DNA from: a virus
Length of the DNA stretch: 23,931 nt
Strand: one strand, 5' to 3'
Virus record (IMG/VR): IMGVR_UViG_3300005537_000290
Location: 1-23,931 of that record
Shown one piece after another: positions 2,841 to 23,931 of this stretch. The notes under the pieces were generated by a model. The model saw only the letters and a list, made by a program, of their open reading frames with translations. It had not been told where the DNA came from and made no database searches. A program made the translations under genes and the position numbers. Every line of letters starts with the position of its first letter. Positions within the stretch are counted from its first letter, which is position 1.

Positions 2841-2866
2841 TGTTTAGTTTTTTGATTGTTTTCGAG
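2841..2866 (+). repeat. Left copy of imperfect AT-rich direct repeat flanking the recombinase
   Basis: TGTTTAGTTTTTTGATT followed by GTTTTCGAG. Its first 17 bases match the right copy at 3392-3408 with only AG/GA swapped, and both copies end in CGAG. It lies immediately before the recombinase start codon. A recombination-site or insertion-footprint role is inferred. Confidence 0.6.
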
Positions 2867-2867
2867 C

Positions 2868-3398
2868 ATGCACGCACTCACCAAAGACGAGTTGAGGCGG
2901 CTACTGAGCACGGCGAAGGTGAATCGCGAGCGCGATTGGCTGATGATTTTGGTGGCGTTCCACCACGGTCTGAGGGCCAGCGAAGTTGTTGGAATTACGG
3001 CAGATGCGGTTGTGGATGGGTTCCTGACGGTGCAGCGTTTGAAGGGCTCGAACAAGACCACGCAAGCGCTGGTGGCGAGCGTGGATCCGCTGCTCGATGA
3101 AAGAGAGGCGTTGATTGAATTCGTACGGAAATCAAAGCCAGGGAGTCCGGTTTTCGGAATTGGGCGAGTACAGTTCTGGCGCCTCGTTAAGAGATACGCA
3201 AGAGCAGCCAGGATCCCGCAGCACAAGGCCCATCCGCATGTCCTCAAGCATTCAATTGCTATGCAAACTATTGACAGAGCAGGAGTTGAGAACGTTCGCC
3301 AGCATCTTGGGCATAAGAGTTTGAGCAGCACCGGAGAATATTTGAAGGTTTCGGATGAAGAAGCGGGGAAGCGAATTTCTGAAGCGCTGAATGTTTGA
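2868..3398 (+). CDS. Tyrosine recombinase (integrase family), catalytic domain only
   Basis: A 176-residue protein from ATG 2868 (TTG at 2856 is an alternative; neither has a good ribosome-binding site). It matches the tyrosine recombinase catalytic core: Arg36 in GLRASEV, Lys59 in RLKGS, the HxxR-box region H124-V-L-K127-H, His149 in LGHKS, and Tyr158 in GEYLKV as the nucleophile. The box arginine is Lys here, a variant I recall from some integrases but one that could affect activity. The usual N-terminal arm-binding and SAM-like core-binding domains are absent, so it is much shorter than a typical phage integrase (~300-400 residues). It sits alone inside the packaging module, is less G+C-rich than its neighbours, and is bracketed by direct repeats, suggesting insertion. 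It may integrate the phage, resolve multimers, or move only itself. Confidence 0.88.
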   Translation: MHALTKDELRRLLSTAKVNRERDWLMILVAFHHGLRASEVVGITADAVVDGFLTVQRLKGSNKTTQALVASVDPLLDEREALIEFVRKSKPGSPVFGIGRVQFWRLVKRYARAARIPQHKAHPHVLKHSIAMQTIDRAGVENVRQHLGHKSLSSTGEYLKVSDEEAGKRISEALNV

Positions 3399-3952: not shown

Positions 3953-5479
3953 ATGCGGGTTTCGGTCTCAGCGAATTCTGGCGCGCCGAGGACCAGCAAG
4001 TTTTATACGCCATTTGCTCGGCAGCAAGAGTTTCACGATTCGCCAGCAAAGTACCGGCTGTTTGGCGGAGCGGCGGGCCCGGGCAAGACCAAAGCGCTGC
4101 TGTGGGAAGCAATCTTTCAGGCGAATAGGGTGCCGCAGTCAGATTCGCTGCTGCTGAGGCGAACGTTTTCAGAGCTCGAGATGTCGCTGTTGGCAGAATT
4201 CCGGAAGAACGTGCCGCGCGATTTGTATGAAAAGTACAACGATGCGAAGCGGGTAATCACCTGGTGGAATGGCAGCACAACGAGGTTTGGCTATTGCCGC
4301 AACGAGAAGGATGTTTACCAGTACCAGGGCGCGGAATTTTTGTTCATCGGGCTGGACGAGCTGACGCACTTTACGCTGAAGCAGTGGCAGTTCCTGACCA
4401 GCCGCAACCGGTGCTCGGTGCCAGGGAGTTTTCCATGTATGGCTGGTGCGAGCAACCCGGGCAACATCGGGCACGCATGGGTGAAGGCGCTATGGGTGGA
4501 CAAGAAAGCGCCGGCGGGATTCGAGCGGCCGGAGCTGTACGACCCGGCGGAATACGAGTTCACGCGAGCGCGGCTGGATGACAACCCGATTTATGCGAAC
4601 GATGCGTCTTATCGCCGAACACTTGAGATCTTACCGTCGCACCTTCGGCGGGCGTTTCTCGATGGCGATTGGGGCATCTTTGCGGGGCAATATTTCGACA
4701 TCTTCGATCTCGGCAAGCATACTCAGGACGGCCGCGAAGTCTACGAAGGAATTCAGCCGTGGTGGCCGCACTGGATATCGATTGACTGGGGATTCCACCA
4801 TCCCAGCGCGGTGTACTGGCATGCCAAAGCGCCAGACGGACCACCGTTTCACGGAAGAGTGTTCACGTACCGCGAGTTTTGCACCGAGCCGGAACGCGGG
4901 CTAAGTCCGAGGGCGCTGGGCCAGCGGATTGCCGAGCAGACCAAAGAGCGCATCACTGAGATTTTCCTGTCGCCGGATGCATTTGCGCATCGCACGGCGG
5001 AAGCGAGCATTGCCGAGCAGCTGGCGGAAGTTTTTGAGTCGCACGATTTGCCGAGGCCAGAGCCCGCGGATGATGACCGCATTGGCGGCTGGCAGTGGAT
5101 GTATCAGTTGATGGAAGGCGAAGCGTGGGTAATCAGCGAGCTTTGTCCAAAGCTGATCGCGTGTTTGCCGACGCTGGTGCGGGACGAGCCGCCGCACGCT
5201 GAGGACGTCATGAAGGTGGACGGCGACGACCCGGCAGATGCTGCGCGGTATGGCTTGGTGCACCTGAAGCGGCAGTTGGTGAACACGCCGAAAGAAGAGC
5301 GGTTCAGGCAGCGGCAGCAGGCGAGCTCATCGATGGAGAAAGTGGTGGATGAGGAGACCGGCAAAGAAAAGTTCGTGATTCGCGACATGACGAGCTTTGC
5401 GATCAATCAGCAGAAGTTAGAGGCCGAGGACCGAAAGAAGTTTGTGCCGAAGCGGAGACCGCGGCCTTGGGGGCGGTAG
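3953..5479 (+). CDS. terL: Terminase large subunit (ATPase-nuclease packaging motor)
   Basis: A 508-residue packaging motor that pumps DNA into the prohead through the portal and cuts the concatemer. N-terminal ATPase domain: Walker A GGAAGPGKT at 38-46; Walker B FIGLDE ending at D135/E136; coupling motif GASNPGN at 165-171. C-terminal RNase H-like nuclease domain: first acidic residue D278 in ISIDWGF, a second candidate D342 in FLSPDAF, a third in DPADAARYGL (D429), which is the usual last-strand motif. Length is normal for large terminases. ATG 3953 lies three bases after the preceding stop with no strong ribosome-binding site, suggesting coupling. The last codons overlap the next gene's GTG by one base. 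Confidence 0.97.
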   Translation: MRVSVSANSGAPRTSKFYTPFARQQEFHDSPAKYRLFGGAAGPGKTKALLWEAIFQANRVPQSDSLLLRRTFSELEMSLLAEFRKNVPRDLYEKYNDAKRVITWWNGSTTRFGYCRNEKDVYQYQGAEFLFIGLDELTHFTLKQWQFLTSRNRCSVPGSFPCMAGASNPGNIGHAWVKALWVDKKAPAGFERPELYDPAEYEFTRARLDDNPIYANDASYRRTLEILPSHLRRAFLDGDWGIFAGQYFDIFDLGKHTQDGREVYEGIQPWWPHWISIDWGFHHPSAVYWHAKAPDGPPFHGRVFTYREFCTEPERGLSPRALGQRIAEQTKERITEIFLSPDAFAHRTAEASIAEQLAEVFESHDLPRPEPADDDRIGGWQWMYQLMEGEAWVISELCPKLIACLPTLVRDEPPHAEDVMKVDGDDPADAARYGLVHLKRQLVNTPKEERFRQRQQASSSMEKVVDEETGKEKFVIRDMTSFAINQQKLEAEDRKKFVPKRRPRPWGR

Positions 5480-5821: not shown

Positions 5822-6703
5822 ATGAAGAAGAAGATTTCAGTGGTAGCCGCGACTGCGGTTGCCTTGCTGTTGGTATTTGCGGGAAGCGCATGGCTGCATC
5901 CAGTAAAGGCCGTGATTCCCTCCGGTAACCTGTCATTTGCTGGCGGAGTTTACAACTCGGCTTCGTATTCGCAGTGGGGCATGTCGGTGGCTGCGGGCAA
6001 CTCGGCAACCGGGAGCCAAGCGATTACGGTGTGCCCGGAATATGTGCAGCTACCGGATGGGCGAGCGTTTAGGCCGCTGGCGCCAGCGAACGGCGTTTTC
6101 ACCCCGTTCACGATTGACCCAGCAGGCAGCGCCTCGGAGACGGTGACGCCGACAGCATATTCGTCGGTGACCGCACCGGCAGGCTATCCCGGAGGCCAGA
6201 ACGGGACATGCGCAAGCGTGACTGCGACCTTCGCGAATACGCATGGCACGAGTTTGGCTCCGAATCAGGTGATTCCCAGCGATCAAGGAATCCAAGAAGC
6301 GATCAACGATGCGGCTCTGAATAATGGCGGAATTGTATGGTGGAAGATCGATCCGGGCATCGTGACGCTGAGTACCGGAGCACCGACCACCAGCCTCGGG
6401 TCAGTGAATATTCCGGCGCGCTCGATCGTGATGAGTGCGACGGCGCGCGTGACGACAACTATTGCCACCTGCGCTGGCGGATGGTCGCTAGGTCTGACTG
6501 GCGGAACGGGCACGGATTTGACTGCAGCCAATACGACGCTGACCGCTGGAACCACAACTGAGTCATCCACGATTAAGACACCAGTGAATACGGCGGCTAT
6601 CGCAGCCGGCGTTCCCACCGCGTTTTGCACCACGTCGAATGCTTCGGCTGGCGCGCTACATGCGCACATCGAAGGCTATAAGCTGGTAGCGCCAGCGCAG
6701 TAA
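5822..6703 (+). CDS. Exported Ser/Thr/Gly/Ala-rich protein with Sec signal peptide
   Basis: A 293-residue protein with an AAAAAAGGA ribosome-binding region upstream of ATG 5822. The N-terminus is a clear Sec signal peptide: basic MKKK, a hydrophobic core (AATAVALLLVFAGSAW) and a likely signal-peptidase-I site after PVKA (~residue 30). The mature part is dominated by Ala, Gly, Ser and Thr with few charges, resembling phage surface or fibre proteins, and has a few cysteines (in TVCPEY, GTCASV, ATCAGG, AFCTTS) that could form disulphides outside the cytoplasm. It lies between terminase and portal in a head-assembly cluster, where a secreted product is unexpected. It could be a surface-modifying moron or an exported virion component. 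Family not recognised. Confidence 0.75.
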   Translation: MKKKISVVAATAVALLLVFAGSAWLHPVKAVIPSGNLSFAGGVYNSASYSQWGMSVAAGNSATGSQAITVCPEYVQLPDGRAFRPLAPANGVFTPFTIDPAGSASETVTPTAYSSVTAPAGYPGGQNGTCASVTATFANTHGTSLAPNQVIPSDQGIQEAINDAALNNGGIVWWKIDPGIVTLSTGAPTTSLGSVNIPARSIVMSATARVTTTIATCAGGWSLGLTGGTGTDLTAANTTLTAGTTTESSTIKTPVNTAAIAAGVPTAFCTTSNASAGALHAHIEGYKLVAPAQ

Positions 6704-8296: not shown

Positions 8297-10852
8297 ATGG
8301 CGACAGCTCCGTTAACGGTTGACCCATCGCAGGCTGACGCGAAGGGTGTGAACGCGCCACCGCCGGGAGTGATTGCGCCGAAGGATGGTAGCGCTGCGCA
8401 GGATGCGCTGGGCTACGGTCCGAACAACGAATATCTGGAGAGCGGGCGCAAGGACCCGCAAGGGCAGGTAATTCTCGAAGGCAAGCCGAAGGTTGTGGCG
8501 GCGATTCGTTCGATCGTGCAGCAGTTCCGGATGGAAGGAATTGTGGCGCGGCGGCATGAGATTCGCCGAATCAAGAAGGCGCGGCTGTTCTGGCAGGGAT
8601 TGCAGTACAGCTATGGCTGGGACGCCGACAACATGGAATGGCAGATGCCCTTTGGAACGAGTCAAGGGCTGAAGCTGAACGATGGGCAGGATGAAGAGCA
8701 GCTGGGCCCGCGCTACGAATTCGTGACCAACATCTATGGCGCGGATGGCGAAGCGTTTATCGCGGTGATGGCGGCGGAAGTGCCGACGATTCATTGGTAC
8801 CCAGTGAATCCGAACAACGAGCAAGACATCGCGGCGGCGAAAGCGGCGAGCGAAGCGGAAAAACTGATCGCCGAAAACAACAAGATTGAGGATTTGCTGC
8901 AGCGCATCGGGTTTTTCCTGTGGACTGACGGAAAAATCGGCGCGTATGTGCGCTACGTGATGGATGGGCAGCAATTCGGGTTTCACGACAACCCGATTGT
9001 GGAAGCGCAGCCGCGGAAGATGGGCGAAGACGCGTTCAACTGCCCGAATTGCGGAGCGCAGACGCCGGCGGGCGCGATGTATTCCGGCACGATTTGTCCG
9101 CAGTGCGGGACAGCGCTGGGCCAGGAACATTTTCAGGAAGCGCCAACGATCCAGGTGCCGGTGGTGACCGGCACGGAGAAAGTACCGAACGGGCAGGAAG
9201 TGATCACGATTGTCGGCGGGCTAGAACTGAACACGCCAGTGTGGGCGAATTACGACTGTGAGATGCCGTACAAGCAATGGCAGCTGGAAGTTCATCAGGC
9301 GCTGTTGAAGGCGAGTTATCCGCTGGCGGCAGACAAGATCATGCCCGGCAATTTGAACGATGCGGAAGATGTTTACGCGCGCGCGAGCCGCGTGAGCGTG
9401 GCGCAAGGGTTGCCGACAACGCATCCGGGCGATGCGTTGGTTTCGCTGATCACGTTTTTGCGGACGTGGATACGGCCGTGGGCGTTCTATGCGATCGAGG
9501 AGAAGGATGTTCGCGCAGAATGTCTGAAATTGTTTCCGGATGGGTGCTACTGCGCGTTTGCGGGAGACACGTACTGCGAATCGCGCAATGAGAATCAGGA
9601 TGAGCATTGGGCGGTGATGCACGCTCTGCCAGGCGACGGCCAGAACCGCCGCGCGTGCGGAAGTTCCGAAGTGGAAGTGCAGGAGCAGGTGAATACGCTG
9701 AGGAATCAGCGGATGGAAGCCGCGGACTATGGCATTCCACCGATTTATGCGGATCCGCAAGTGCTGGATTTCGATGCGCTCGGCAATCGCGTGGCGGAGC
9801 CGGGAACGCATTTCCCGGCGAGGGCGAGGCCTGGACAGCCGCTTGAAGCGGGATTCTTTCAGCCAGCGCCTGGGCAGATTGCTGCGGACTCGATTGCGTA
9901 TGAGCAGGAGTTGAGCGGACCGACCGCGCAGCGGTTGACGGGATTGTATCCGGCGATTTATGGCGGAGCGATGGAAGGCTCGAAGACGCTGGGCGAGTAC
10001 GCAATCGCGAGGGAGCAAGCGATGGGCCGGCTGGGGCTGGTCTGGTCGCGAATAAAAGTCTTCTGGGCACGAGTGATGCAACTCGCGGTGAATTGCTTCA
10101 AAAAAAATCGCACCGAGGATGTGCAGATTCCGATCTTGGGCGAGGACGGAGAGTTTGAAGCAAAGGTTTTAAAAATTACCGATCTGCAGGGAAATGCCCA
10201 ATCGCGTAACGAAGCCGATGAAAAATTTCCGCAAGCGAAGAGCCAGCAGCGCGGCGTGTTGCAGCAGTTTATAGGCATGGCCCCAGAAGCGCCGGAAATT
10301 GCGGCGATGCTGGCCGAGCCGGCGAACATGCGGTACATCAAAAACGTGGTGGGGCTGACGGATTTGGTGATTCCGGGCGAGGACAGTGCAAACAAACAGC
10401 TGCGCGAGATTTCTCAGTTACTGAAGTCGCCACCGATTCAGATTGGCGTGGCGCCGGGACCGAATGGGCCACAGCCGCAGTTCACATCTACTCTGCCGGT
10501 CGACCCGGACCTAGACCGTCACCAGCCAGAGATGCAAGAGATTGTGCGGTGGTGGAATTCGCCGGCGGGGATACAGGAAAAACTGAAGAATCCGATGGGC
10601 TGCGCGAACGTGCGAGCGCACTTCATGGAGCATAAGCAGGCCATGGCCGCGCAGCAGAGCGCGCAGAACAAGCCGCCGAGCGAATCGATGAACTTCAAGG
10701 ACATGCCGACCAGCGGAAAAGTACAGATGGCCGCGCAGGCAAACATTCAGCTGAATCCGATGGAGTTGGAGGCAAAAGACGCGCAAGAACGCGCGGACAA
10801 AGCCGCCGAGCTGAAAGCAAAGTTAGGAAGTAAACAGGAGAAAGCAGCATGA
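8297..10852 (+). CDS. Portal protein with internal zinc ribbon
   Basis: An 851-residue protein in the portal position, following terminase and preceding scaffold and capsid. The portal is the dodecameric ring at one head vertex through which DNA is packaged and ejected. Large length, an acidic/polar N-terminus, helical stem-like segments (VVAAIRSIVQQFRMEG ... RIKKARLFWQGL) and a Gln/Ala-rich C-terminal tail fit large podovirus-type portals. Residues 249-270 hold CPNC ... CPQC (C249, C252, C267, C270), a four-cysteine zinc ribbon inserted in the body; this is not a normal portal feature. ATG 8297 follows GAGG at 8291-8294. Its stop overlaps the scaffold start as ATGA. No sequence motif uniquely proves a portal; gene order is the main evidence. 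Confidence 0.85.
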   Translation: MATAPLTVDPSQADAKGVNAPPPGVIAPKDGSAAQDALGYGPNNEYLESGRKDPQGQVILEGKPKVVAAIRSIVQQFRMEGIVARRHEIRRIKKARLFWQGLQYSYGWDADNMEWQMPFGTSQGLKLNDGQDEEQLGPRYEFVTNIYGADGEAFIAVMAAEVPTIHWYPVNPNNEQDIAAAKAASEAEKLIAENNKIEDLLQRIGFFLWTDGKIGAYVRYVMDGQQFGFHDNPIVEAQPRKMGEDAFNCPNCGAQTPAGAMYSGTICPQCGTALGQEHFQEAPTIQVPVVTGTEKVPNGQEVITIVGGLELNTPVWANYDCEMPYKQWQLEVHQALLKASYPLAADKIMPGNLNDAEDVYARASRVSVAQGLPTTHPGDALVSLITFLRTWIRPWAFYAIEEKDVRAECLKLFPDGCYCAFAGDTYCESRNENQDEHWAVMHALPGDGQNRRACGSSEVEVQEQVNTLRNQRMEAADYGIPPIYADPQVLDFDALGNRVAEPGTHFPARARPGQPLEAGFFQPAPGQIAADSIAYEQELSGPTAQRLTGLYPAIYGGAMEGSKTLGEYAIAREQAMGRLGLVWSRIKVFWARVMQLAVNCFKKNRTEDVQIPILGEDGEFEAKVLKITDLQGNAQSRNEADEKFPQAKSQQRGVLQQFIGMAPEAPEIAAMLAEPANMRYIKNVVGLTDLVIPGEDSANKQLREISQLLKSPPIQIGVAPGPNGPQPQFTSTLPVDPDLDRHQPEMQEIVRWWNSPAGIQEKLKNPMGCANVRAHFMEHKQAMAAQQSAQNKPPSESMNFKDMPTSGKVQMAAQANIQLNPMELEAKDAQERADKAAELKAKLGSKQEKAA

Positions 10853-12384: not shown

Positions 12385-13641
12385 ATGCCAGCACAAGCAA
12401 ACGCAAACGTAATCGCGTTGCAACTGGAGAAGGTGCGCGACAAAGTGCCTCTCCTCTACGAACGCGATGACATCTTACTCACCATGATCCAGCAGCGTGG
12501 TGACGTGGAAAAAGTGAGCAGCCGCAACATGCGTCTGCCGCTGCAGATCAATCCCGGCGGCAAAGCGGGAAGCTACAACGCGGATGGCGGAGATTTGGGG
12601 CGCGGCAGCGGAACGCAGTATGACGTTGCGCAGGTCAGCCCGGTCTTCTTCCGGTTCGCAATCGAAATCACTAAGCTGGTGGAGTATGCGACCAACGGGC
12701 GAGAGAAGGCGATCGAGAATGCGGCCAAGCGCGAAGTGGCGCAGGGCATGAAGCAGTTTCGGGCGTTCCTGGACAAGCTGATGCAGACCGCCGGGAACGG
12801 CGTGCTGGGAGTAATCAGCAGCGTGGCTGGCAACGTGTTGACTATGGCGATCCCGAACGGCGCCGCGCTGGTCTACGTTGGCCAGACCATTCAGGTGTAC
12901 GACACCACGCTGACCACCAATCGCGGCACCGCGAACGTGGTGGAAGCGGATCCAATCAGCGCTTCGCAGACGATTACGCTGGACGCGCTGCCTGCCGGCA
13001 CCGTGGCGACCGACGTGATCGTGCATGACGGTTTGGCGGGAGCTTCGCCGGTGAGCTTGTTCGGGATCAAGTACCACCAGAACAATGCGACGACCGGAAC
13101 CTGGCTCAACCTGAACCGCGCGACCTACCCGGTACAGCTGCAGACACCGCGCGTAAACGCCGGAAACGCAGCGTTGACGCCAACCAACGTCCGCCTGGCG
13201 TACAACAAAGTGCGCAAGGCGTTGGGCGTGAACCAGCTGGGCAAGCTGATCGCCTACATGGCGCTGGAACAGGAACATGCCTGGGAAAACTTGGGCATCA
13301 CCATCAGCCAGGTGATCAAGGAAGGCGCGGGAGGCGGAGTCGAAGACCTGGATTTGCTGTTCAGCGGCAAGAAGACCATGGGCGGAGTTCCGATCAAGGC
13401 CAGCATCAACGCGGACCAGACGCGCATCGATTATTTGGACCTGAGCCACTGGGGCCGCGCGGTGATGAAGGACATCGACTTCTACGAAGTCAATGGCAAC
13501 ACGGTGTTCCCGATTTACGGCGCCAGCGGTGGCTTGGCTGCGTCGTACATCTTCTATTTCGATTTGGCGATGCAGGTGTGGGACGACAGCCCACGCAGCG
13601 GCGCTTTTATTGACACGCTCGCGAGACCCGCCGGATATTAG
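12385..13641 (+). CDS. Major capsid protein (HK97-fold, putative)
   Basis: A 418-residue protein directly downstream of the scaffold, preceded by AAGGA (12373-12377) at good distance. The N-terminus is helical (ALQLEKVRDKVPLLYERDD), followed by RLPLQINPGGKAGSYNADGG and GDLGRGSG segments of a type found in capsid proteins of tailed phages, then beta-rich parts, and a C-terminal half with the ends of an A-domain-like region (VMKDIDFYEV ... FPIYGASGG). Hundreds of copies would form the icosahedral shell. No N-terminal protease-cleaved delta domain is obvious; the separate scaffold gene fits this. Identification rests on gene order, length and pattern. Confidence 0.88.
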   Translation: MPAQANANVIALQLEKVRDKVPLLYERDDILLTMIQQRGDVEKVSSRNMRLPLQINPGGKAGSYNADGGDLGRGSGTQYDVAQVSPVFFRFAIEITKLVEYATNGREKAIENAAKREVAQGMKQFRAFLDKLMQTAGNGVLGVISSVAGNVLTMAIPNGAALVYVGQTIQVYDTTLTTNRGTANVVEADPISASQTITLDALPAGTVATDVIVHDGLAGASPVSLFGIKYHQNNATTGTWLNLNRATYPVQLQTPRVNAGNAALTPTNVRLAYNKVRKALGVNQLGKLIAYMALEQEHAWENLGITISQVIKEGAGGGVEDLDLLFSGKKTMGGVPIKASINADQTRIDYLDLSHWGRAVMKDIDFYEVNGNTVFPIYGASGGLAASYIFYFDLAMQVWDDSPRSGAFIDTLARPAGY

Positions 13642-14427: not shown

Positions 14428-15126
14428 ATGCCAAGACCGCAGATACAGTTCGACACGCGAGAAATCGCGGTGATTTGCAACATCAGCGAGCAGACCATGG
14501 GGCCGGTGATGCGCGATTATGGCGCATTCATCGTGCAGGGATGCAAGGAAGGGTTGCGGCTGGTCCGTCACGTAAACGGCGAAATCGAAGAGATTGAATG
14601 CGAGAAGGGGCAGGAATACGCGCTGACCGAGATAACCGGGCGCGACACGCGGGTGGACGTTGGCGAAAAGAATTCGCGGTTGGAGTACGTCTATGCCACA
14701 CAGATTGCGGAAGACTTGGTGCGAGTGATGAACGCCAACGTACCGGTGGGCGCGATCACTGATGATGGAGAGGCTGTCGCGAGCTTTTCCGGTGTGTTTC
14801 TGTGTAAGGGCAACACGCCAACAAAGACGGAGCTGGCAGAGGCGCACGCCAAGCTGAAGCTGTTCTATCAGGGCAGCGTCTCGATGGCGGACGCGTTGTG
14901 GGAGCAGCACCACAATCCGATTTTCATTGATGCGGTGATGCGCCGCGCGGCGCGGTCGCTGGGGCTGATCGATAAGCCGTGGCTGTTCGATACCAAGACG
15001 GCGGAGAAGTGCCCGGCATGCGCGGAGCAGGTGAAAGCCGGAGCGGTGGTTTGCCGGCATTGCGGCTTCGTGCTGGACCAGGCGAAGGCGAAAAAGTTGG
15101 GAATTGGCGAGAAAAGCGCGGCTTAA
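14428..15126 (+). CDS. Hypothetical protein with C-terminal zinc ribbon
   Basis: A 232-residue protein from ATG 14428 with a good AAGGAGAG ribosome-binding region (14415-14422). Residues 195-212 are CPAC ... CRHC (C195, C198, C209, C212), a compact zinc ribbon of the type found at the ends of many small proteins. The body mixes helices and beta-like segments and is not recognised. The zinc ribbon resembles, in spacing style, the one inside the portal (Cys-x2-Cys twice), though the intervening loop differs. A tail- or head-completion role is plausible from position only. Confidence 0.75.
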   Translation: MPRPQIQFDTREIAVICNISEQTMGPVMRDYGAFIVQGCKEGLRLVRHVNGEIEEIECEKGQEYALTEITGRDTRVDVGEKNSRLEYVYATQIAEDLVRVMNANVPVGAITDDGEAVASFSGVFLCKGNTPTKTELAEAHAKLKLFYQGSVSMADALWEQHHNPIFIDAVMRRAARSLGLIDKPWLFDTKTAEKCPACAEQVKAGAVVCRHCGFVLDQAKAKKLGIGEKSAA

Positions 15127-15382: not shown

Positions 15383-18370
15383 ATGAGCATCGCCGGTGCC
15401 ATCGATGTGCCCGTGGAGATCATCGGCGGGTTGGTGTGCGATACCGCGCCGGATGTATTGCCGAGCGGGGTATCGCCGGATTGCCAGGATTGCAGTTTTG
15501 CGAAGTCGGCGGTGGAGACCCGGCCAGGTCTTGCACCGCTGGCGCAGCTAAACGGCAACGTGGTGAATTACCTGAAGACGTTTGTGACCTCGAACGGGAC
15601 CAAGCGGGCGATGTCGTTGACGGACATCGCGAATCTTTATAAAGAGACCGCGCCGAACGCGATGACGCTGGTGCAGCAGCTGGCGGACGCAAATCCGCAG
15701 GTTGCGGTGCCGGTCTATGGGAAGTCGACAACGCTGTTTCAACGGGAGTGGATTGCCATCAGCGACGGCCAGAATGGGATCGGCATTCCGCGGCAGTTTG
15801 ATGATGCGCTGCTCGATCGGGTGAGCCAGGAAGGGCCAGGAGTAGCGCCGACAGCGACGGACGAAAACGTCCAGGTCAACGTTGTGGCAAGTCCTGCGGG
15901 AGCGACGCAGCCTGCAGCGGTGGCAATCGCTGTGGCGAGCGAGAGCGGGTTTCTGGTCACCATCACGACGGCCGCGGCACATGGATTGAGCGTCGGGCAG
16001 AGCACCACAATCGCCGGCGTTGGCGTGGCGCAATACAACGGGACTTTTCCGGTGCTGGCGGTGCTGAGCAACGTCAAGTTTCAGTACATTCTGGGAATTT
16101 CTGGGCTGGCCGCGTCGGGCGGCGGAACATCGGCATCGGCGACAGCAACGATTCAGACCACCGCGGCGCATGGATTTGTGGTTGGCCAGCTGGTGACCAC
16201 TGCGGGGATCGCTGTGGGCGGCTACAACGGCACGTTTGCGATTACCGGAGTGCCGGACGCGACACACTTCACGTTTACGGCGCTGACAGGGGGGTTGGCG
16301 GCTTCTGGAAACGGGACGGCATCGGCGGCAGGAAGTATTCCGGCCGGTGTGCACCAAGTCAGCGTCTGCTTCGTAACCAGGAAGGGCTACATCACGAAGC
16401 CGGCGCCACCGGTATCGTGGACCGCGAGCGGCGGAAAGCGCGTGGCGCTGACGGGCATCCCGATCGGGCCGCCGAACGTGGTGCAGCGGATTCTGATTTT
16501 TACCGGAGCGGCGGGAGCGAGCTTTTTCTATTTGCCGCCGGATGCGACGAACATTTATTCCGGGAGCACCATCGTCACGGACAACACGACGACGTCGACG
16601 GTGGTGGACTTTGCGGATGCGGTGCTGCTGGCAGGCACGAATGCGGATGCGCTGTTTGATCTGCAAGTGCTGGGGGAATGCGCGGGAGTGGAATCGTACA
16701 GCGACCGGCTCTTCTGGTGGGGCGAACGCAACAAACTGTTTAATTTGCTGAACATGGAATTTTGCGGCGGGTTCTCGAATCCGGGGCTTCTGCCGAATTT
16801 GCCGCTGGGCTGGACGCCAGATGCAGTGTTCAGTCCTGGCGGAGCATCGGCAAACAAGCTGGGTGGGCCGGTCATCTGGGGCGATGCGTACGCGATTGTG
16901 GGGGATGGCGCGACGCCGACGCGAGGGCTGCTGACGCAAGCGGTCGCGCAAGACTTTTTCAAGGTACCGATCATCCAGGCGAACACCGATTATTCGGTGC
17001 GGGTAAGGGTTTGCAAGAATTTGGCGCTGGCCGCGGGAACGCTGCATGTGAATTTGAAAAGCGTAAGCGGCGCATTCACGACGGTGGGGCTGCAACTGAC
17101 GGCCGCGCAAGTGACCACGGGATACGTGGAGTACACGGCAGACCTGACGGCGCCGCTGACCACGATTCCAGCGGACCTGGTGCTGCAGATTTATGCCGAT
17201 GGAACGCCGACCAATGGCGGGGTCTTCTACATCGGCACCATTCAGATTTATCCGACGCTGCAGCCGTTTTTGAGTTCACAGCTGCGCTCAAGCAAAGCCG
17301 AGGATCCTGAGAGCTATGACGGGACGGACGGCTTCCTAAACATTGCGGAAAACGATGGGTACGCGGTGCGGAATTGCTACGAGCAGCGTGCGCGGCTGTA
17401 TGTGGTGAAAGAGCATTCGCTGCACACCACGCAGGATGACGGAGTGAACGAGCCGGCGCAATGGACGATTGATCGGGTATCGGCGAAGGTCGGAACGCCA
17501 TCGTGCAACGGAGCCGGGCTTGGCGAGGATTGGGCAATCATCGCGGATCGGAATGGGCTGTACATCACGCGCGGCGGCGAACCGGTAAAGATTTCGCAGG
17601 AAGTGGGGCACAGCGCAAGCGGGCAGACGCTGGCCTGGGACCAGATCAACTGGCAGTACGGGTCAACGCTATGGGTGCTGGTAGACACGGAAAAGAAAAA
17701 GATTTTGGTCGGCGCGCCGTTTGGAGCGGCAACGACACCGAGCGCGGTGCTGATGATGGATTATCGCGACATCGATTCCGAACAGGGAATCGAGACCAGT
17801 CCAGCGATCCGGCTGAGTTATCGCGGGCAGAAGATTGTGAGCGACAAAAGCCGGAAGTGGAGTCCGTGGAGCATGTCGGCAAATAGCTGCGCGCTGATCG
17901 AGCGTGCGGACGGAACCGCGCACATTTGGATGGGAGCTGGCGCGGGAGTGCCGGCAGGAACGGACACTGGGTACATCTACGACTTGCTGGAAACGCAGCT
18001 GACGGACTACACGACGAAGCAGCAGATTCCGAGCTATTACACGACAGCGTTCATCCCGCAGCGGGAAGCGAACCAGGCGACACAGAGCCACGAACACCGC
18101 AAGTTTTTCCCGTACCTGGCGACGTACATCGAAGGTTCGGGATTCGTGAATTTCACCGCGCATGTGAACTCGCTGAACTTTACACAGCAGCTGCCATCGC
18201 TGATTTTGTCGAACCCGGCGTACGGAGATTTGGAAATGACGCTGAACGTGCTGGGCGAGCGAGTGGCGTGGAAGATTTCGCAGAGTGGGGCGGCGAGCTG
18301 GTTCCGGCTGCAGAAGTTTACGCCGGCGATGATGGGCGCGCCGTGGAGTCCGGTTCGTGGCGTGAATTAG
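15383..18370 (+). CDS. Large tail protein, propeller-like with internal repeats
   Basis: A 995-residue protein with no signal peptide. Residues ~192-315 hold two copies of a ~60-residue repeat (TTAAAHGLSVGQSTTIAG ... YNGTF ... GLAASGGGT, then TTAAHGFVVGQLVTTAG ... YNGTF ... GLAASGNGT), of a kind seen in phage tail proteins. The remainder has repeated short beta-blade motifs (YSDRLFWWGER, DWAIIADRNGLYITRG, TLWVLVDTEKKKILVGAP, AVLMMDYRDID) suggesting a beta-propeller, as in the tail nozzle proteins of P22-like (gp10) and T7-like (gp12) podoviruses. Such proteins extend the tail below the portal/adaptor ring and carry fibres. ATG 15383 lacks a clear ribosome-binding site. Nozzle identity is inference from repeat character, length and context. 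Confidence 0.85.
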   Translation: MSIAGAIDVPVEIIGGLVCDTAPDVLPSGVSPDCQDCSFAKSAVETRPGLAPLAQLNGNVVNYLKTFVTSNGTKRAMSLTDIANLYKETAPNAMTLVQQLADANPQVAVPVYGKSTTLFQREWIAISDGQNGIGIPRQFDDALLDRVSQEGPGVAPTATDENVQVNVVASPAGATQPAAVAIAVASESGFLVTITTAAAHGLSVGQSTTIAGVGVAQYNGTFPVLAVLSNVKFQYILGISGLAASGGGTSASATATIQTTAAHGFVVGQLVTTAGIAVGGYNGTFAITGVPDATHFTFTALTGGLAASGNGTASAAGSIPAGVHQVSVCFVTRKGYITKPAPPVSWTASGGKRVALTGIPIGPPNVVQRILIFTGAAGASFFYLPPDATNIYSGSTIVTDNTTTSTVVDFADAVLLAGTNADALFDLQVLGECAGVESYSDRLFWWGERNKLFNLLNMEFCGGFSNPGLLPNLPLGWTPDAVFSPGGASANKLGGPVIWGDAYAIVGDGATPTRGLLTQAVAQDFFKVPIIQANTDYSVRVRVCKNLALAAGTLHVNLKSVSGAFTTVGLQLTAAQVTTGYVEYTADLTAPLTTIPADLVLQIYADGTPTNGGVFYIGTIQIYPTLQPFLSSQLRSSKAEDPESYDGTDGFLNIAENDGYAVRNCYEQRARLYVVKEHSLHTTQDDGVNEPAQWTIDRVSAKVGTPSCNGAGLGEDWAIIADRNGLYITRGGEPVKISQEVGHSASGQTLAWDQINWQYGSTLWVLVDTEKKKILVGAPFGAATTPSAVLMMDYRDIDSEQGIETSPAIRLSYRGQKIVSDKSRKWSPWSMSANSCALIERADGTAHIWMGAGAGVPAGTDTGYIYDLLETQLTDYTTKQQIPSYYTTAFIPQREANQATQSHEHRKFFPYLATYIEGSGFVNFTAHVNSLNFTQQLPSLILSNPAYGDLEMTLNVLGERVAWKISQSGAASWFRLQKFTPAMMGAPWSPVRGVN

Positions 18371-18404: not shown

Positions 18405-20099
18405 GTGAGCAAAAAACTGACAAAACTTTGGCTAACTTTAGCCGCTGTGATGCTGGGGTGTGTCTTCGCGCCGGCTGCGAGCGCCCAGGGCGGGCCGATC
18501 AATAGTATAGCTCTACGGTATACGCCGAGCGGGGTGCAGTATTTCCCCGGAGCGACGATCACGATTTGCGCGTCGAATGCGACGATACCGCTGAACGGAG
18601 TGTGCACGCCGGCGGAGAATGATGCGAACTGCTGTTTTACGAATGCGGCGATGACGGTGGCCAGCCCGAATCCGACGGCCGCGGACACTTTTGCGAACTA
18701 TCCACCGCTTTTCGGGACCCCTGGAAACTACATCGTCTGCATTTCAGGGAACAATGCGACGCCGAGATGCAGCCCGTATGTGATTCCCTGCGTACCGAGC
18801 GCCGTGGTGGCGGGGTGTGCGACAAATGCAGGAATAGCGCGGCTGCAAATTTCCGGGACGCCGCTGGTGAGCGGGGATTTCAGCACGCCAAGCGCGGGAG
18901 GATGGGGAACCGGCGCAACGATTTCGAGCATTGCAGGGAGTGACAGCGGGTTTCAGTTTACGATCACGGCGGGAACCAGTCCGAGCATAGCGCCAACCAT
19001 CACGCTGACGTTCCATGATGGGCCGTGGACGGCGATCAACAGCGTAAGCGCGAACTGGATTGCTGGAACGGGGAATGTGGCCGATGTCCAGCAATCGAAC
19101 AACCTTTCTTCGATCACGCTGACGTACCTCGATCTGCCGGTAGCGACGAAGACGTACACCTTCAGCGTGCTGCTGTCTGGGCGGTCGAACGTAATTCCGG
19201 TGACGAGTGTGGTGAATCCGGTGGTGTTGAATCCGAGCGGGTTCCAGACGATCACGGGTTTTGGTTTGGGAGTGCCGTCACTCACGTCGACGGGGCTTTC
19301 GACATTCAACGCAGGGATAACCGGAACGGGAAACATCGGGAATCTGGATTTAGGCAGCGCAGCGCTGGGCGCGTCGCATACCTGGAGCGCGGCGCAGACG
19401 TTTCCGGCAAGCTCGATCGCGTGCACGGTATTGATTGGCGGATGCCCGTCGGGCGGAACGACGGTCAGCATCAATGGGGTGTCGCAAGGCAGCGCGGTAA
19501 ATCTGGGAGCTCTGCCGTCGGCGGACGCGAACAATGTGCAGGTGGTGTGGAAGCAAGGTTCGGGCAAAGGATCGGGGGAAGTGCCGGGATCGGGAAATGG
19601 AAGCCAAGTCTGCACGGTGGCCGGATCAATGAGCGGCGGGCACCTAGTGGCGATCGACGCGAACGGGAATTGCATCGACAGTGGATTTCCGATTCAGAAC
19701 CACTACACGCTGGCCAGCGACGTGTCGGTTAGCGCGGCGACGATTACCACGCTGAAAAGCGCGACGATTACGATGCCGTCGACTGGCTGTCCATGTCGGG
19801 CAGATGTGCGATGGGAATTTGGAGCGACAACCTCAAACGCAGGCGGCGTTGAGGCTTGGGTGAGCGATGGCACGAACAACTTCGCTCCTGGAGGAGCGAA
19901 CACCACCGGGTCAGTAGGGCCGCCAACGCAGTTTCATGCAAAAGGCGGCGAATATTCACTTGGAACAGCGTATGCAAACGGCGCAAACGTGACATTCACC
20001 TGGAAAGTGGAGAGTGAGCAGGCGATCACGGTGAGGCAGTCATCGCAATTTGCGCCGGTTGGGGCTTACCTGGACATCACGATTTACCCGAGCAACTAG
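18405..20099 (+). CDS. Exported beta-rich fibre-type protein with Sec signal peptide
   Basis: A 564-residue protein from GTG 18405. Residues 1-28 form a Sec signal peptide: KKLTK, a hydrophobic core (LWLTLAAVMLGCVFA) and an Ala-x-Ala site (PAASA) before QGG. The mature N-terminal ~110 residues hold a beta-sandwich-like, cysteine-containing domain (ATITICAS, GVCTPAEN, CCFTN, GNYIVCISG, CSPYVIPC), reminding me of Ig-like modules at the start of some soil-phage tail proteins. A long Ser/Thr/Gly/Val-rich fibrous middle follows, and a C-terminal jelly-roll-like segment (EAWVSDGTNNFAPGG ... DITIYPSN) typical of fibre tips. The many cysteines fit an oxidising, extracytoplasmic location. It precedes the spike gene by four bases. 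Likely a tail fibre or host-surface protein; how a secreted protein joins a virion is unresolved. Confidence 0.8.
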   Translation: MSKKLTKLWLTLAAVMLGCVFAPAASAQGGPINSIALRYTPSGVQYFPGATITICASNATIPLNGVCTPAENDANCCFTNAAMTVASPNPTAADTFANYPPLFGTPGNYIVCISGNNATPRCSPYVIPCVPSAVVAGCATNAGIARLQISGTPLVSGDFSTPSAGGWGTGATISSIAGSDSGFQFTITAGTSPSIAPTITLTFHDGPWTAINSVSANWIAGTGNVADVQQSNNLSSITLTYLDLPVATKTYTFSVLLSGRSNVIPVTSVVNPVVLNPSGFQTITGFGLGVPSLTSTGLSTFNAGITGTGNIGNLDLGSAALGASHTWSAAQTFPASSIACTVLIGGCPSGGTTVSINGVSQGSAVNLGALPSADANNVQVVWKQGSGKGSGEVPGSGNGSQVCTVAGSMSGGHLVAIDANGNCIDSGFPIQNHYTLASDVSVSAATITTLKSATITMPSTGCPCRADVRWEFGATTSNAGGVEAWVSDGTNNFAPGGANTTGSVGPPTQFHAKGGEYSLGTAYANGANVTFTWKVESEQAITVRQSSQFAPVGAYLDITIYPSN

Positions 20100-20103
20100 A
20101 ACC

Positions 20104-22779
20104 ATGAAAAAAACGAACATCTTAATCGCAGCGCTTTTGGCGCTGCTGGGAGTGGTGTATCCGGCGAATGGGCAGACCAGCCGAAGCGGACGGATCACGC
20201 AAGGACCGCTGGCAGCGCAGCCAAACTGCACGGTGCCGGCAAGCCCTGGAGATTTTTATGTGGCGACGGACCAGACACCGGTGCAAGTGTCGGTGTGCAG
20301 CTCGACCGGATGGACATCGGTAGGCGGACTCGTCGGCGGCGGGATCATTGGCAGTCTTCTGACGGCAAGCTCGCCGACCGCTTCCGTTTTTCAAGTGGGA
20401 GGGGTGCCACTCGGCAACGGGAACGCCCCGGTTACCACTTGTGCGCCATATGTGGTGAAGGCGGATGGCGGATCGCCTGTGGCGACGCTCGACCGCGGCA
20501 CGCTCATCGTAATTCAATCTGCCAGCGCGTGCACGGTGACGCTGCCTGATCCTACCACGCCAGGGATGGGCGGTTATTTCCCGTTCAAGATTATGAACGC
20601 GGGAGCCGGAACGGTGACGGTGAATCACGGAGGGACGGCGACGTTCACCGTGGTCAACGGGCTAACCACGACTACAGGGGCGACCAGTTTCAGTGTGGTA
20701 GCGTCTCAATTCGGCTGGGTGAATTCCGACAACGGAAATTGGTGGGTGCAAATCGTACCCGGCGGGTCCAGCGGAGTGACCAACCGCGATGTGACCGGCA
20801 CAACCAGCACGGACACGGTGCTCGCGGGCGATTGCAATGGCAATGCGATCACGCATAAGGAGTCGGTGGCGAATGCGACGACGCTGCCGACGGCGACGAC
20901 GCTAGGCGTAGCGGCTTGCACGTTTACGATCGCGAACAACACGACTGGAACGCCGTCTGATGTGACAGTCACGCCGACGACGTGGACGATTAATGGAAAC
21001 GCAAATTTCCCGATTCACCAGAATCAGACTTGCCGGTTGACCGTGGATGGCGCGACGAACTGGAAGACGGACTGCGCGGAAGGGCCCTTGACTGCGAGTG
21101 GCAACGCGACACTCGTTCGCACGCCGCACTCCACGGCACTGAGTATCGTTGGAGCGGACAACGGGAATCCAGGCATCAATTTCATTTACGCGACTTCTTA
21201 CGGCGTTAAGGGTGGCGGAGCGTTCACCGCTGGGGATGGACATACAACGAGTGGGAGCGCAACCGTAACCTCAGCGTCGGCAGTGTGGACTCCGGCGATG
21301 GTGGGTTGGATTCTGAAAGGCGCTACCAGCGCAGGGTCGTTATTCCCAAATGGAACCACCGTTTTGTCGGTGACCAACGCGAATACGCTGGTTGCTTCGC
21401 AGAATGCCATCGGCACCACGACTGCAGGGAATCTCGGAGTTTTTCCGCAAGATGAAACGGCAAACATCACCGCTGCGGTGAACGCGATGGCCGCGCTGCA
21501 AAACTGCGGAACTGTAGTGATGCCAAGCGGCGCATCGTTGGTTAGCGGGGCAGTCGGGAATCTCTCGGCTACTCCAACCGCATGCCAAGGGGTCAACGGG
21601 CAAGGCCCATTCCCGATTATTCAAGGGCAATCAGCTGAATCATTCGGAAAAGGCGGGACACAAATCGTTGGAAGCCCCGATTTTGATTTCAGCACCTGTA
21701 CCAATTTTGTTCCCTGTCTATTTAACAACGTTCAAATTGCAAATTTGAATATAAATGGGTTGGGTCTAAACACACTGCCAGCAGCGGCACAAAACAAAGT
21801 ACTCGTTGGATCAGAGCCGATTCATGATTTTGGTATCTATGGTTGGGGGTCGCCGTCAATCACTGGCTTCACTGCTCTTAGCATGAATAATGGCGGTGGT
21901 ACTTCCTGTTTTACCTGCTTTATTGATAATACAGGAATTGTAACGATTGGGAATTTTGGAACGTTCTCTGGGTATGTCGAAGGCACTTCGTATGTCCAAA
22001 TTAGTGCCGGAGGACAGTTAACGCTGCTTGGTGCAGGCACTGAAATTGATGGCGTGAACCTAAACGGTTCCGGGGCGCAGATTTGGTGTAGCGACGGGCA
22101 AAGAATCGTTGGCAATGTCAACGGGACAAATTTTGGCGAAGCGATACGCTTTTCGAGTTCTGGAGGCACAGCTTATTTAAACGGTTGCAATGTGATCGGA
22201 GCTTCAGGGCAAATGATCACCTTTGCTGCTAGCGGTTCAGTGTATGTCCACAACACGCAATTTACCGGGAGCAGCGGCGGATTCCTTTTCAGCAACGGCG
22301 CTGGCCAGAATTTCTACAACCTCGGTGGAAACTCGTATTCCGGTACGCTGACGTCCACCACCGTTTCAGGGCTGAGCATCATCGCCGGAAGTCCAAACGA
22401 CGTTTTCGGGTCGTGTACTGGGACAGCAACGTCCTCATCGGGATCTGCGTTTGGTCTGTACGGGACGGGACCAAATGAAACTATAACCACCTGCACTTCC
22501 GCGACGATTGGCTCAGGTAAGCCAGCGTCAGGTCCCGGAACGGTCGTTGGACTGTACGCCACAGCTTCTCATGCCGGGGTAAACGGGTCATCCGGGGTCG
22601 TGACCCTACTTAAAAATGGCGCCACGACAACCCAAACCTGCACCATTGGAACCGGCACCGCCTGCAACGATTTTGCGCATCCAATTTCCTATGTTCAAGG
22701 CGACTTACTCTCGCTTCAGTACACAACCCAGAACAGCGAAGTCTTGGCGGGCGTTCAAGCAGTGGCGATTACTCAATGA
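20104..22779 (+). CDS. Tail spike-like beta-helix protein with Sec signal peptide
   Basis: An 891-residue protein. ATG 20104, four bases after the previous stop, is preferred over an in-frame TTG at 20050 because it starts a clear signal peptide (MKKTNILIAALLALLGVVYPANG, cleavage near residue 23). Residues ~355-500 contain YGVKGGGAFTAGDGH and, further on, DETANITAAVNAMAALQNCGTVVMPSG; this is the GVKGDG...AIxxAI...GTVxxPxG signature of pectate-lyase-like right-handed beta-helices in phage spikes. Repeated turn-like rungs follow (~520-790), then a C-terminal beta-sandwich-like tip (VVGLYATASHAG ... VLAGVQAVAITQ). Such spikes bind or degrade host surface polysaccharide. Bases ~21650-22300 are markedly A+T-richer than the rest, suggesting domain replacement. 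Its stop overlaps the next start as ATGA. Confidence 0.87.
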   Translation: MKKTNILIAALLALLGVVYPANGQTSRSGRITQGPLAAQPNCTVPASPGDFYVATDQTPVQVSVCSSTGWTSVGGLVGGGIIGSLLTASSPTASVFQVGGVPLGNGNAPVTTCAPYVVKADGGSPVATLDRGTLIVIQSASACTVTLPDPTTPGMGGYFPFKIMNAGAGTVTVNHGGTATFTVVNGLTTTTGATSFSVVASQFGWVNSDNGNWWVQIVPGGSSGVTNRDVTGTTSTDTVLAGDCNGNAITHKESVANATTLPTATTLGVAACTFTIANNTTGTPSDVTVTPTTWTINGNANFPIHQNQTCRLTVDGATNWKTDCAEGPLTASGNATLVRTPHSTALSIVGADNGNPGINFIYATSYGVKGGGAFTAGDGHTTSGSATVTSASAVWTPAMVGWILKGATSAGSLFPNGTTVLSVTNANTLVASQNAIGTTTAGNLGVFPQDETANITAAVNAMAALQNCGTVVMPSGASLVSGAVGNLSATPTACQGVNGQGPFPIIQGQSAESFGKGGTQIVGSPDFDFSTCTNFVPCLFNNVQIANLNINGLGLNTLPAAAQNKVLVGSEPIHDFGIYGWGSPSITGFTALSMNNGGGTSCFTCFIDNTGIVTIGNFGTFSGYVEGTSYVQISAGGQLTLLGAGTEIDGVNLNGSGAQIWCSDGQRIVGNVNGTNFGEAIRFSSSGGTAYLNGCNVIGASGQMITFAASGSVYVHNTQFTGSSGGFLFSNGAGQNFYNLGGNSYSGTLTSTTVSGLSIIAGSPNDVFGSCTGTATSSSGSAFGLYGTGPNETITTCTSATIGSGKPASGPGTVVGLYATASHAGVNGSSGVVTLLKNGATTTQTCTIGTGTACNDFAHPISYVQGDLLSLQYTTQNSEVLAGVQAVAITQ

Positions 22780-23267
22780 AAAAACTTTTCCTAATCGCCG
22801 GAGTGCTGGCACTGCTGACGCCGATGGTGCAAGCGAAGCCGTGCGTGAAGCGGGCAAGCTTTTGGGTTGGTGAAGGCGTCATCCTGGGCAGTGTGACCGC
22901 CGATGATTTGACGAGCGCCAAATATACGGGGCCGAACGCTGAATCGAATATCGGGAGCCATCCGAGCAACCGGCAAATCGCGTTGTTTGGCCTGCTCTCA
23001 GCGGGCGTTGAGTCGGTGCTCAATCTCGCAGCTTGCCACGTGGCTCATCACGTTCCTATAGCCGCGTCCTGCACCGACCACATTGACTCCAAGGGGCACA
23101 TCCGCGAGCACTGCACGGAATACGTGGAAGACAAGCTCGGGTGGCGCATCGTTGGCGGCGCTGGAATCCCGGCAGTGACCGGAATCATTTATGGATATTT
23201 CGGAGCGTACGAAAACTCGCAGCTTAGCGCGGGGCATGCGGCCGCGAGGAACTACCAACTGAAATGA
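22776..23267 (+). CDS. Exported/membrane-associated small protein with Sec signal peptide
   Basis: A 163-residue protein starting at ATG 22776, overlapping the spike stop by four bases. Residues 1-20 are a signal peptide (MKKLFLIAGVLALLTPMVQA). The mature part has a Gly/Ala-rich hydrophobic segment (LFGLLSAGVESVLNLAA, residues ~71-87), a His-rich patch (CHVAHHVP), a Cys pair (SCTDHIDSKGHIREHC) and a C-terminal Gly/Ile-rich hydrophobic stretch (IVGGAGIPAVTGIIYGYFG, ~125-144). It may be periplasmic and membrane-attached. Location between two beta-helix genes suggests a chaperone, anchor or surface-related role, but there is no recognisable domain. Confidence 0.7.
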   Translation: MKKLFLIAGVLALLTPMVQAKPCVKRASFWVGEGVILGSVTADDLTSAKYTGPNAESNIGSHPSNRQIALFGLLSAGVESVLNLAACHVAHHVPIAASCTDHIDSKGHIREHCTEYVEDKLGWRIVGGAGIPAVTGIIYGYFGAYENSQLSAGHAAARNYQLK

Positions 23268-23931
23268 GAAAGTTTCTCCCAATCCTGCTGCTTTTGCTGC
23301 TCGCGCCATCGGCTCGCGCAACCGTGCGCACGTTCTATATCGACTACGGCTCAGGATCGAATTCCAACGCCGGGACGCAGGCGTCGCCGTGGAAGTCGCA
23401 TCCGTACATGCAAAACGCTTCTGGATGCGGCGGCGCTCTCCCGAGCTACACGCATCAAACTGGCGACCAATTCATTTTCAAGGGTGGAGTGACGTGGCCA
23501 GCGGCCTGCTTCGGGATGAACATCCCGAGCGGCGGAAGTTCCAGCACCCCTGATTATTATGGAACCTGTGGCGGGCAATCTTCCGCGCCTGCTGCTTGCA
23601 GCGGAACGACCTGGCCCGCGAGTGGCTGGACGCGGCCGGTTTTCAATCCTTCCACGGCACCGACCGGGGTGAGCACTCCGGGCGGCACATCGCAAGCCGT
23701 CATCACGATACAGGCAAATTACGTCACGATCGATAACCTTGAAAATTCAGGGCAGTACATTCCTTACGCCAACTCTCTCATTTTCGGCGGGACGGCATTT
23801 GTAAACGCCTATGGCAGTTCTTGCGGCTCCTACACCGGAATCTTGATCGAAAATATTTACTCGCACGGGTTTTTCTCGAATGACCAATTTTCCAGCACCA
23901 CTGGATACGGCAAATTTGACGCTGGAAACGC
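23264..23931 (+). CDS. Second beta-helix spike/depolymerase-like protein with signal peptide, 3' truncated by window
   Basis: ATG 23264 overlaps the preceding TGA by four bases and the frame stays open to the window end, giving 222 visible residues. Residues 1-19 are a signal peptide (MRKFLPILLLLLLAPSARA). Mature sequence begins TVRTFYIDYGSGSNSNAGT then QASPWKS; this DxxxGSDxNxGTxxxPWKT-type opening is characteristic of right-handed parallel beta-helix proteins (pectate-lyase / DUF1565-like). It is followed by GDQFIFKGG and rungs such as VITIQANYVTIDNLENSG and GILIENIYSHG. Five to six cysteines fit an extracellular fold. Probably a second spike, depolymerase or adhesin alongside the preceding one; catalytic residues cannot be judged because the C-terminus is missing. 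Confidence 0.8.
   Translation, partial: MRKFLPILLLLLLAPSARATVRTFYIDYGSGSNSNAGTQASPWKSHPYMQNASGCGGALPSYTHQTGDQFIFKGGVTWPAACFGMNIPSGGSSSTPDYYGTCGGQSSAPAACSGTTWPASGWTRPVFNPSTAPTGVSTPGGTSQAVITIQANYVTIDNLENSGQYIPYANSLIFGGTAFVNAYGSSCGSYTGILIENIYSHGFFSNDQFSSTTGYGKFDAGN

Follow-up and report, generated by a model that had tools for sequence, protein, structure and literature searches.

By the accepted view, the particles of tailed phages are put together in the cytoplasm, out of proteins of a reducing compartment. Why, then, would a tailed phage provide its fibre with a secretion signal? The question is raised by IMGVR_UViG_3300005537_000290, which we analysed from position 1 to 23,931 (the whole stretch of that record, hereafter the window). 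In it, five proteins (gp18405, gp20104, gp22776, gp23264 and gp5822) begin with Sec-type signal peptides, and gp18405 appears to be a tail fibre. Judging from their sequences, the proteins with signal peptides are almost certainly exported, and the gp18405 type is probably the receptor-binding protein of the virion. We lean towards a fuller account in which such fibres leave the cytoplasm, form disulphides in the periplasm and attach to virions when the cell lyses.

An earlier reading made from the letters of the window (the sequence-only reading) placed five open reading frames here and assigned Sec signal peptides to them. The reading frames are present where it put them, and the signals score as known Sec signals do. 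Rated with a rule-based scorer for Sec and signal peptidase I, the five N-termini reach 15.1-15.8, and the E. coli references MBP, OmpA, PhoA, LamB, Bla, DsbA, PelB and Lpp span 11.7-15.3; no other main window gene, taken from its annotated start, exceeds 7.5. Each of the five has a basic n-region, an uncharged hydrophobic core and small residues at -3 and -1. Whole-protein shuffles match the five scores 0-1 times in 2000, and shuffles of residues 2-35 match them 0-39 times in 2000. Start sites downstream of the signal segment, which the sequence-only reading named as a way to be wrong, are unlikely for gp22776 and gp23264 because each gene overlaps the preceding stop in an ATGA (20104/22776 and 22776/23264), an arrangement of coupled translation; the GTG of gp18405 lies 34 nt past the previous stop. 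Three of the five window proteins lack phage relatives, which leaves some room for an artefact of chance hydrophobic N-termini or wrong start codons. Against this stand the shuffle tests, the ATGA overlaps, conservation in 53 + 7 homologues, the parity of the cysteines and the statistics of the cleavage sites, and we regard such an artefact as extremely improbable. The same reading saw a whole late module routed out of the cytoplasm, which is too broad, as the portal, capsid, nozzle-like and other core window genes have no signal peptide.

The family of gp18405 was examined at 53 loci in Acidobacteriota phages and prophages. Its members consist of a signal peptide, a conserved domain (the anchor domain) and a variable C-terminal part. 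Their genes were called automatically, and many of the loci are related to each other. A signal peptide is found in 53/53 loci after the start codons of a few low scorers were corrected; in L090 the start codon could not be pinned down, and a signal-like stretch precedes the conserved QGSRKDD. Among some 500 core virion homologues (terminase, portal, capsid, 13784, 14428, 10849 and 6719), none has a signal peptide. Where the mature domain is 70-80% identical between relatives, the signal peptide has drifted to ~27% identity and is still a signal peptide, so selection acts on its properties. In 47 distinct sequences the cleavage sites obey the (-3,-1) rule: position -1 is alanine or glycine in 47/47, small residues occupy position -3 in 98% and position -2 in 4%, and glutamine is the first mature residue in all 47.

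Two alternatives bear on these observations. Cleavage is a prediction from sequence, and the hydrophobic N-terminus could instead stay in place as an anchor in the virion or a membrane, with no real export. This is very improbable given the canonical pattern in the 47 unique signals, the coincidence of the predicted cut with the start of signal-less homologues (below), and the parity and pairing of the cysteines. The module could also consist of host secreted genes acquired by chance, with no selected role in the phage. Such an origin is suggested by two host TonB-receptor-like proteins, whose N-terminal domain weakly resembles the anchor domain and likewise sits behind a signal peptide, and by a host relative of gp23264 that has a signal peptide. 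We think it just as improbable, since the fibre is retained across divergent phages, selection acts on the properties of its signal peptide, and, in the 60 acidobacterial genomes sampled, the anchor domain was not strongly matched anywhere but in prophages. A host origin of the anchor domain was itself considered and set aside, the two host matches being marginal.

The mature proteins are rich in cysteine, as the sequence-only reading had remarked: 14 in gp18405, 20 in gp20104, and 4 each in gp22776 and gp5822, the complete window proteins. Within the anchor domain of the gp18405 family a cysteine pair is invariant in 50/50 sequences, even where ~90 residues are inserted between the two. The number of cysteines is even in 42/45 mature fibres of the family (counts 9-32; one 42-aa fragment excluded), and in the largest cluster of 29 fibres it runs from 9 to 28 and is nearly always even. 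For cytoplasmic virion proteins of the same phages, even counts occur in about 45% (15/37, 19/36, 23/48, 17/37 and 8/17). As the proteins compared are related, their counts do not amount to independent observations. An even number of cysteines is an accepted hallmark of bacterial proteins that are exported and disulphide-bonded (PMC7678975). The earlier suggestion of fibre export followed by disulphide formation is strongly supported, by the conserved signals, the cleavage-site statistics, this parity and the cysteine pair that accompanies the signal peptide in a homologous tail-spike anchor domain (below). Among unexported virion genes, the homologues of gp14428 (14428-15126) are the richest in cysteine (median 2.46 per 100 aa); they have no even bias and may hold a metal site.

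The variable part of gp18405 ends in a tip that resembles receptor-binding structures. AlphaFold2 models of the protein are confident at its two ends only, in the N-terminal domain and the last 145 residues. The model of the tip, of moderate confidence, matches C1q/TNF-like jelly rolls, including those of phage fibre proteins and lectins (C1q-domain phage proteins in BFVD, the knob of the phi812 central spike, Pgp3 and BC2L-C). The protein thus probably ends in a C1q/TNF-like fibre tip, a receptor-binding fold. Unlike these relatives in fold, to which it is 9-18% identical, the tip of gp18405 sits on an exported protein. One contig, L002, shares only this tip with the window, at 63% identity (19662-20096 against L002:10001-10390); the two phages have little else in common, a pattern of host-range module exchange.

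L002 carries its own exported fibre with a different N-terminal domain, and this sister family provides the link to virions. The L002-type domain is 43-49% identical to the N-termini of tail spikes and fibres in complete podovirus genomes, including that of the cultivated Xanthomonas phage PBR31. The homologous N-terminus of PBR31 is its virion-binding domain according to its authors, who compare the tail spike protein (TSP) with those of P22 and Sf6 (PMC10975493). Gene neighbourhoods are similar as well, as the PBR31 spike gene follows genes annotated as internal proteins and the exported spike in L002-type contigs likewise follows cysteine-free proteins; both spikes have a variable, receptor-binding C-terminal part. 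The exported type differs from these podovirus spikes in a cleavable Sec signal of 20-40 residues before the domain and in an added cysteine pair.

A scan for the domain returned 80 loci, of which 74 lack a signal peptide and 6 have one. The signal-less proteins start, where readable, within a few residues of the first residue of the domain, and in the six others the predicted cut falls at that same place. Cysteines occur at two aligned positions in exactly those 6/80 loci, one of them within a six-residue insert. Cysteine density is about fourfold higher in the six (2.25 per 100 residues) than in signal-less homologues of at least 250 residues (0.61), and the number is even in 6/6. In a tree the six group together (support 99/98) on long branches, so the combination of signal peptide and cysteine pair arose once and was long kept, and does not represent six origins. 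Homologues lacking the N-terminal segment, which the sequence-only reading had named as grounds for rejecting it, thus exist, only outside this group and without the cysteine pair, and for that reason they support export.

We propose the following sequence of events. The fibre gp18405, and presumably further products of its operon, would be made with a cleavable Sec signal peptide and cross unfolded into the periplasm via Sec, where signal peptidase I would remove the signal. The fibre would then fold and form its disulphides, probably with host DsbA-like enzymes, and would begin with its virion-binding domain. Once holin and endolysin breach the inner membrane and the wall, heads assembled in the cytoplasm would meet the waiting fibres, and fibre binding would be the last step of assembly. 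The P22 tail spike is the last part added to its particle and binds completed heads in vitro, which makes late attachment mechanically plausible. The sequences show conserved signal peptides, canonical cleavage sites, cysteine pairing, the homology of the sister anchor and a predicted C1q/TNF-like tip; from these we infer Sec export, folding and oxidation in the periplasm, the attachment to virions, its timing and place, and a mature form of the fibre on particles. Three meanings had been offered earlier for the signals. Attachment to virions during or after lysis fits best, because the podovirus tail-spike virion-binding domain of the sister family regains its usual N-terminus once the signal is removed; decoys or superinfection exclusion, and display on the cell surface, are less favoured. 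In its widest form the proposal is evenly balanced: a tailed-phage group may complete its virions outside the cytoplasm, with fibres, and possibly gp5822, being exported, oxidised, stored in the periplasm and mounted during or after lysis, perhaps after a second job at the host envelope.

The strongest competitor is that the proteins are exported and never enter the virion. An infected or lysogenic cell would carry them on its surface or secrete them (as a decoy, superinfection exclusion factor, adhesin or free depolymerase), and the phage would adsorb by means of other proteins. Export and oxidation support this equally, the hosts carry these phages as prophages, and gp22776 and gp23264 resemble secreted or membrane cargo more than fibres. 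Lambda lom and similar tail-region genes are precedents. An exported bacterial enzyme with a tailspike fold, WceF, is also known (PMC7949094). We nevertheless judge it unlikely, though clearly less so than the other alternatives. Fibres of the gp18405 type, signal peptide included, are found across the clade within the block of structural genes, and no other large fibre-like gene occurs in those integrated prophages for which the downstream flank was read. In the sister family, cleavage would leave a tail-spike virion-binding domain with its normal N-terminus, and the tip has been swapped between unrelated phages, as expected of host-range proteins.

Several observations weigh against mounting of the exported fibres on virions as a general account. 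Since the signal and cysteine pair of the sister family arose once, its six loci are not independent. The gp18405 anchor has a weak link to the anchors of the tail-spike family (hhalign E 2e-4, probability 45%) and a weak match to the tailspike head-binding domain 7eeq of the PDB (E 0.43). Its cysteine pair lies at places other than in the sister domain; being at best distantly related and differing in this way, the gp18405 anchor may represent a second acquisition. In a distant L002-type relative from an acidobacterium, G207, the 20 kb that were read include no exported fibre; the trait therefore does not extend to the whole of Acidobacteriota. Finally, gp20104, gp22776 and gp23264 have no relatives in IMG/VR, and their export is predicted from their own signal peptides only.

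Known systems share parts of this arrangement. Lambda lom/bor-type lysogenic-conversion genes encode signal-peptide proteins near phage tail or late genes. They are, however, small outer-membrane or lipoprotein accessory genes, whereas here the main phage fibre is exported. The patchy presence expected of such a lysogenic-conversion (moron) gene is not seen for gp18405, whose fibre type is found clade-wide with its signal peptide. Filamentous phages route virion proteins (pVIII, pIII) across the inner membrane. In contrast to the window, which encodes the terminase, portal-type and capsid proteins of a tailed phage, they assemble in the membrane. WceF of Pantoea stewartii is likewise a tailspike-related exported protein in a Gram-negative organism, but it has a Tat signal, is encoded in a polysaccharide cluster and not in a phage structural operon, and has no virion role (PMC7949094). 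In the open-licence literature that we searched, we found no description of exported tailed-phage fibres or of split-compartment assembly by tailed phages, and absence from this subset is weak evidence. An export signal under selection across a clade, together with a signature of cysteine oxidation, would mean that some tailed phages use the secretion and disulphide machinery of the host for an infectious part. Annotation would change, as such fibres may be taken for secreted proteins of the host or for metabolic cargo, and the signature could help to identify host-range proteins in soil phages. It also makes assembly of tailed phages across the inner membrane a testable question.

The window is best explained as part of a temperate, short-tailed (podovirus-like) phage that infects Acidobacteriota (core genes in Table 1). 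Its capsid protein has relatives at 70 loci in IMG/VR and at 39 loci in genomes of bacteria and archaea. Almost all of the latter belong to Acidobacteriota/Terriglobia, and with contigs of up to 624 kb they are mostly prophages. No match was found among 50,697 cultivated phage records, nor were relatives of gp18405 found in cultivated phages. From these relatives we place the window in an uncultivated temperate clade of Acidobacteriota phages, and the gp18405-type phages are a widespread uncultivated soil family infecting this phylum. Distant capsid relatives (38-40% identity; L108, L109 and L110) occur in metagenome-assembled genomes labelled Chloroflexota, Pacearchaeota and Bacteroidetes, possibly through binning errors; L108 and L110 encode no exported large protein within the stretch read. 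In the prophages, the fibre is followed within a few kb by a gene for a transglycosylase-type endolysin and then by host genes. Six prophages (L115, L116, L117, L118, L120 and L125) lie near the same two host genes, nadE and one for a DsbA-like thiol oxidoreductase that has a signal peptide, at a site where no tRNA attachment site was found. The gene beside nadE in these six genomes indicates that the hosts encode a DsbA-like enzyme.

Table 1. Features of the window, with predicted functions and predicted signal-peptide cuts.
Feature	Coordinates	Strand	Details
gp18405, putative exported tail fibre	18405..20099	+	GTG start; signal peptide, anchor domain with conserved cysteine pair, variable shaft, C1q/TNF-like C-terminal tip
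gp18405 signal peptide	18405..18485	+	27 aa; cut between MSKKLTKLWLTLAAVMLGCVFAPAASA and QGG
gp18405 conserved mature N-terminal (anchor) domain	18486..18887	+	two invariant cysteines
gp18405 C-terminal tip	19662..20096	+	C1q/TNF-like jelly roll (model); close match in L002
gp20104, putative exported protein	20104..22779	+	891 aa; cut between MKKTNILIAALLALLGVVYPANG and QTS; no close relatives
gp22776, putative exported protein	22776..23267	+	163 aa; cut between MKKLFLIAGVLALLTPMVQA and KPC; ATGA overlap with gp20104
gp23264, putative exported protein	23264..23929	+	cut by contig end; signal cut between MRKFLPILLLLLLAPSARA and TVR; ATGA overlap with gp22776
gp5822, putative exported protein	5822..6703	+	293 aa; between terminase and portal; 30-aa signal peptide, cut between VKA and VIP
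Terminase large subunit	3953..5479	+	no signal peptide; control
Portal-type structural protein	8297..10852	+	function from size, position and relatives; no signal peptide; control
Major capsid protein (phrog_14242)	12385..13641	+	no signal peptide, no cysteine; control and phage-clade marker
Nozzle-like virion structural protein	15383..18370	+	995 aa; directly upstream of gp18405; no signal peptide; control
Small tyrosine recombinase	2856..3398	+	fits a temperate phage

The other exported products are less uniform than the sequence-only reading assumed. Its four consecutive fibre or spike genes are reduced to one good candidate: gp18405 with its C1q/TNF-like tip stands, gp20104 is spike-like by size and composition only, gp22776 is not spike-like, and gp23264 is weakly similar to the secreted pectate lyase PelN. 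Beside its signal peptide gp22776 has two hydrophobic stretches and could be a membrane or lysis protein. Conservation of the signal peptides in homologues holds for gp18405 and for gp5822 (7/7 complete homologues); gp20104, gp22776 and gp23264 lack close phage relatives and appear patchy among the relatives of the window. In 149 acidobacterial genomes, gp20104 and gp22776 have no relatives and gp23264 has a single host relative, the one with a signal peptide. The fold of gp5822 gives weak matches to phage tail and decoration proteins. Searches of Pfam, PHROGs and NCBIfam returned no match for gp18405, gp20104 or gp5822, and a consensus scan for a promoter and terminator of the exported genes' own stayed at chance level. 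Exported genes occur as tandem pairs in some relatives (L126, L167 and L168); the window has four in a row.

Two of the core proteins have features of their own. The portal-type protein (8297-10852) contains a zinc-ribbon-like CxxC...CxxC at about residues 245-282, below the curated cut-off and unusual for a portal. The tyrosine recombinase (2856-3398) is very small (180 aa) and of the XerA/integron-integrase type, and a similar-looking reading frame is found in an otherwise different L002-type contig (L128, 12895-13449).

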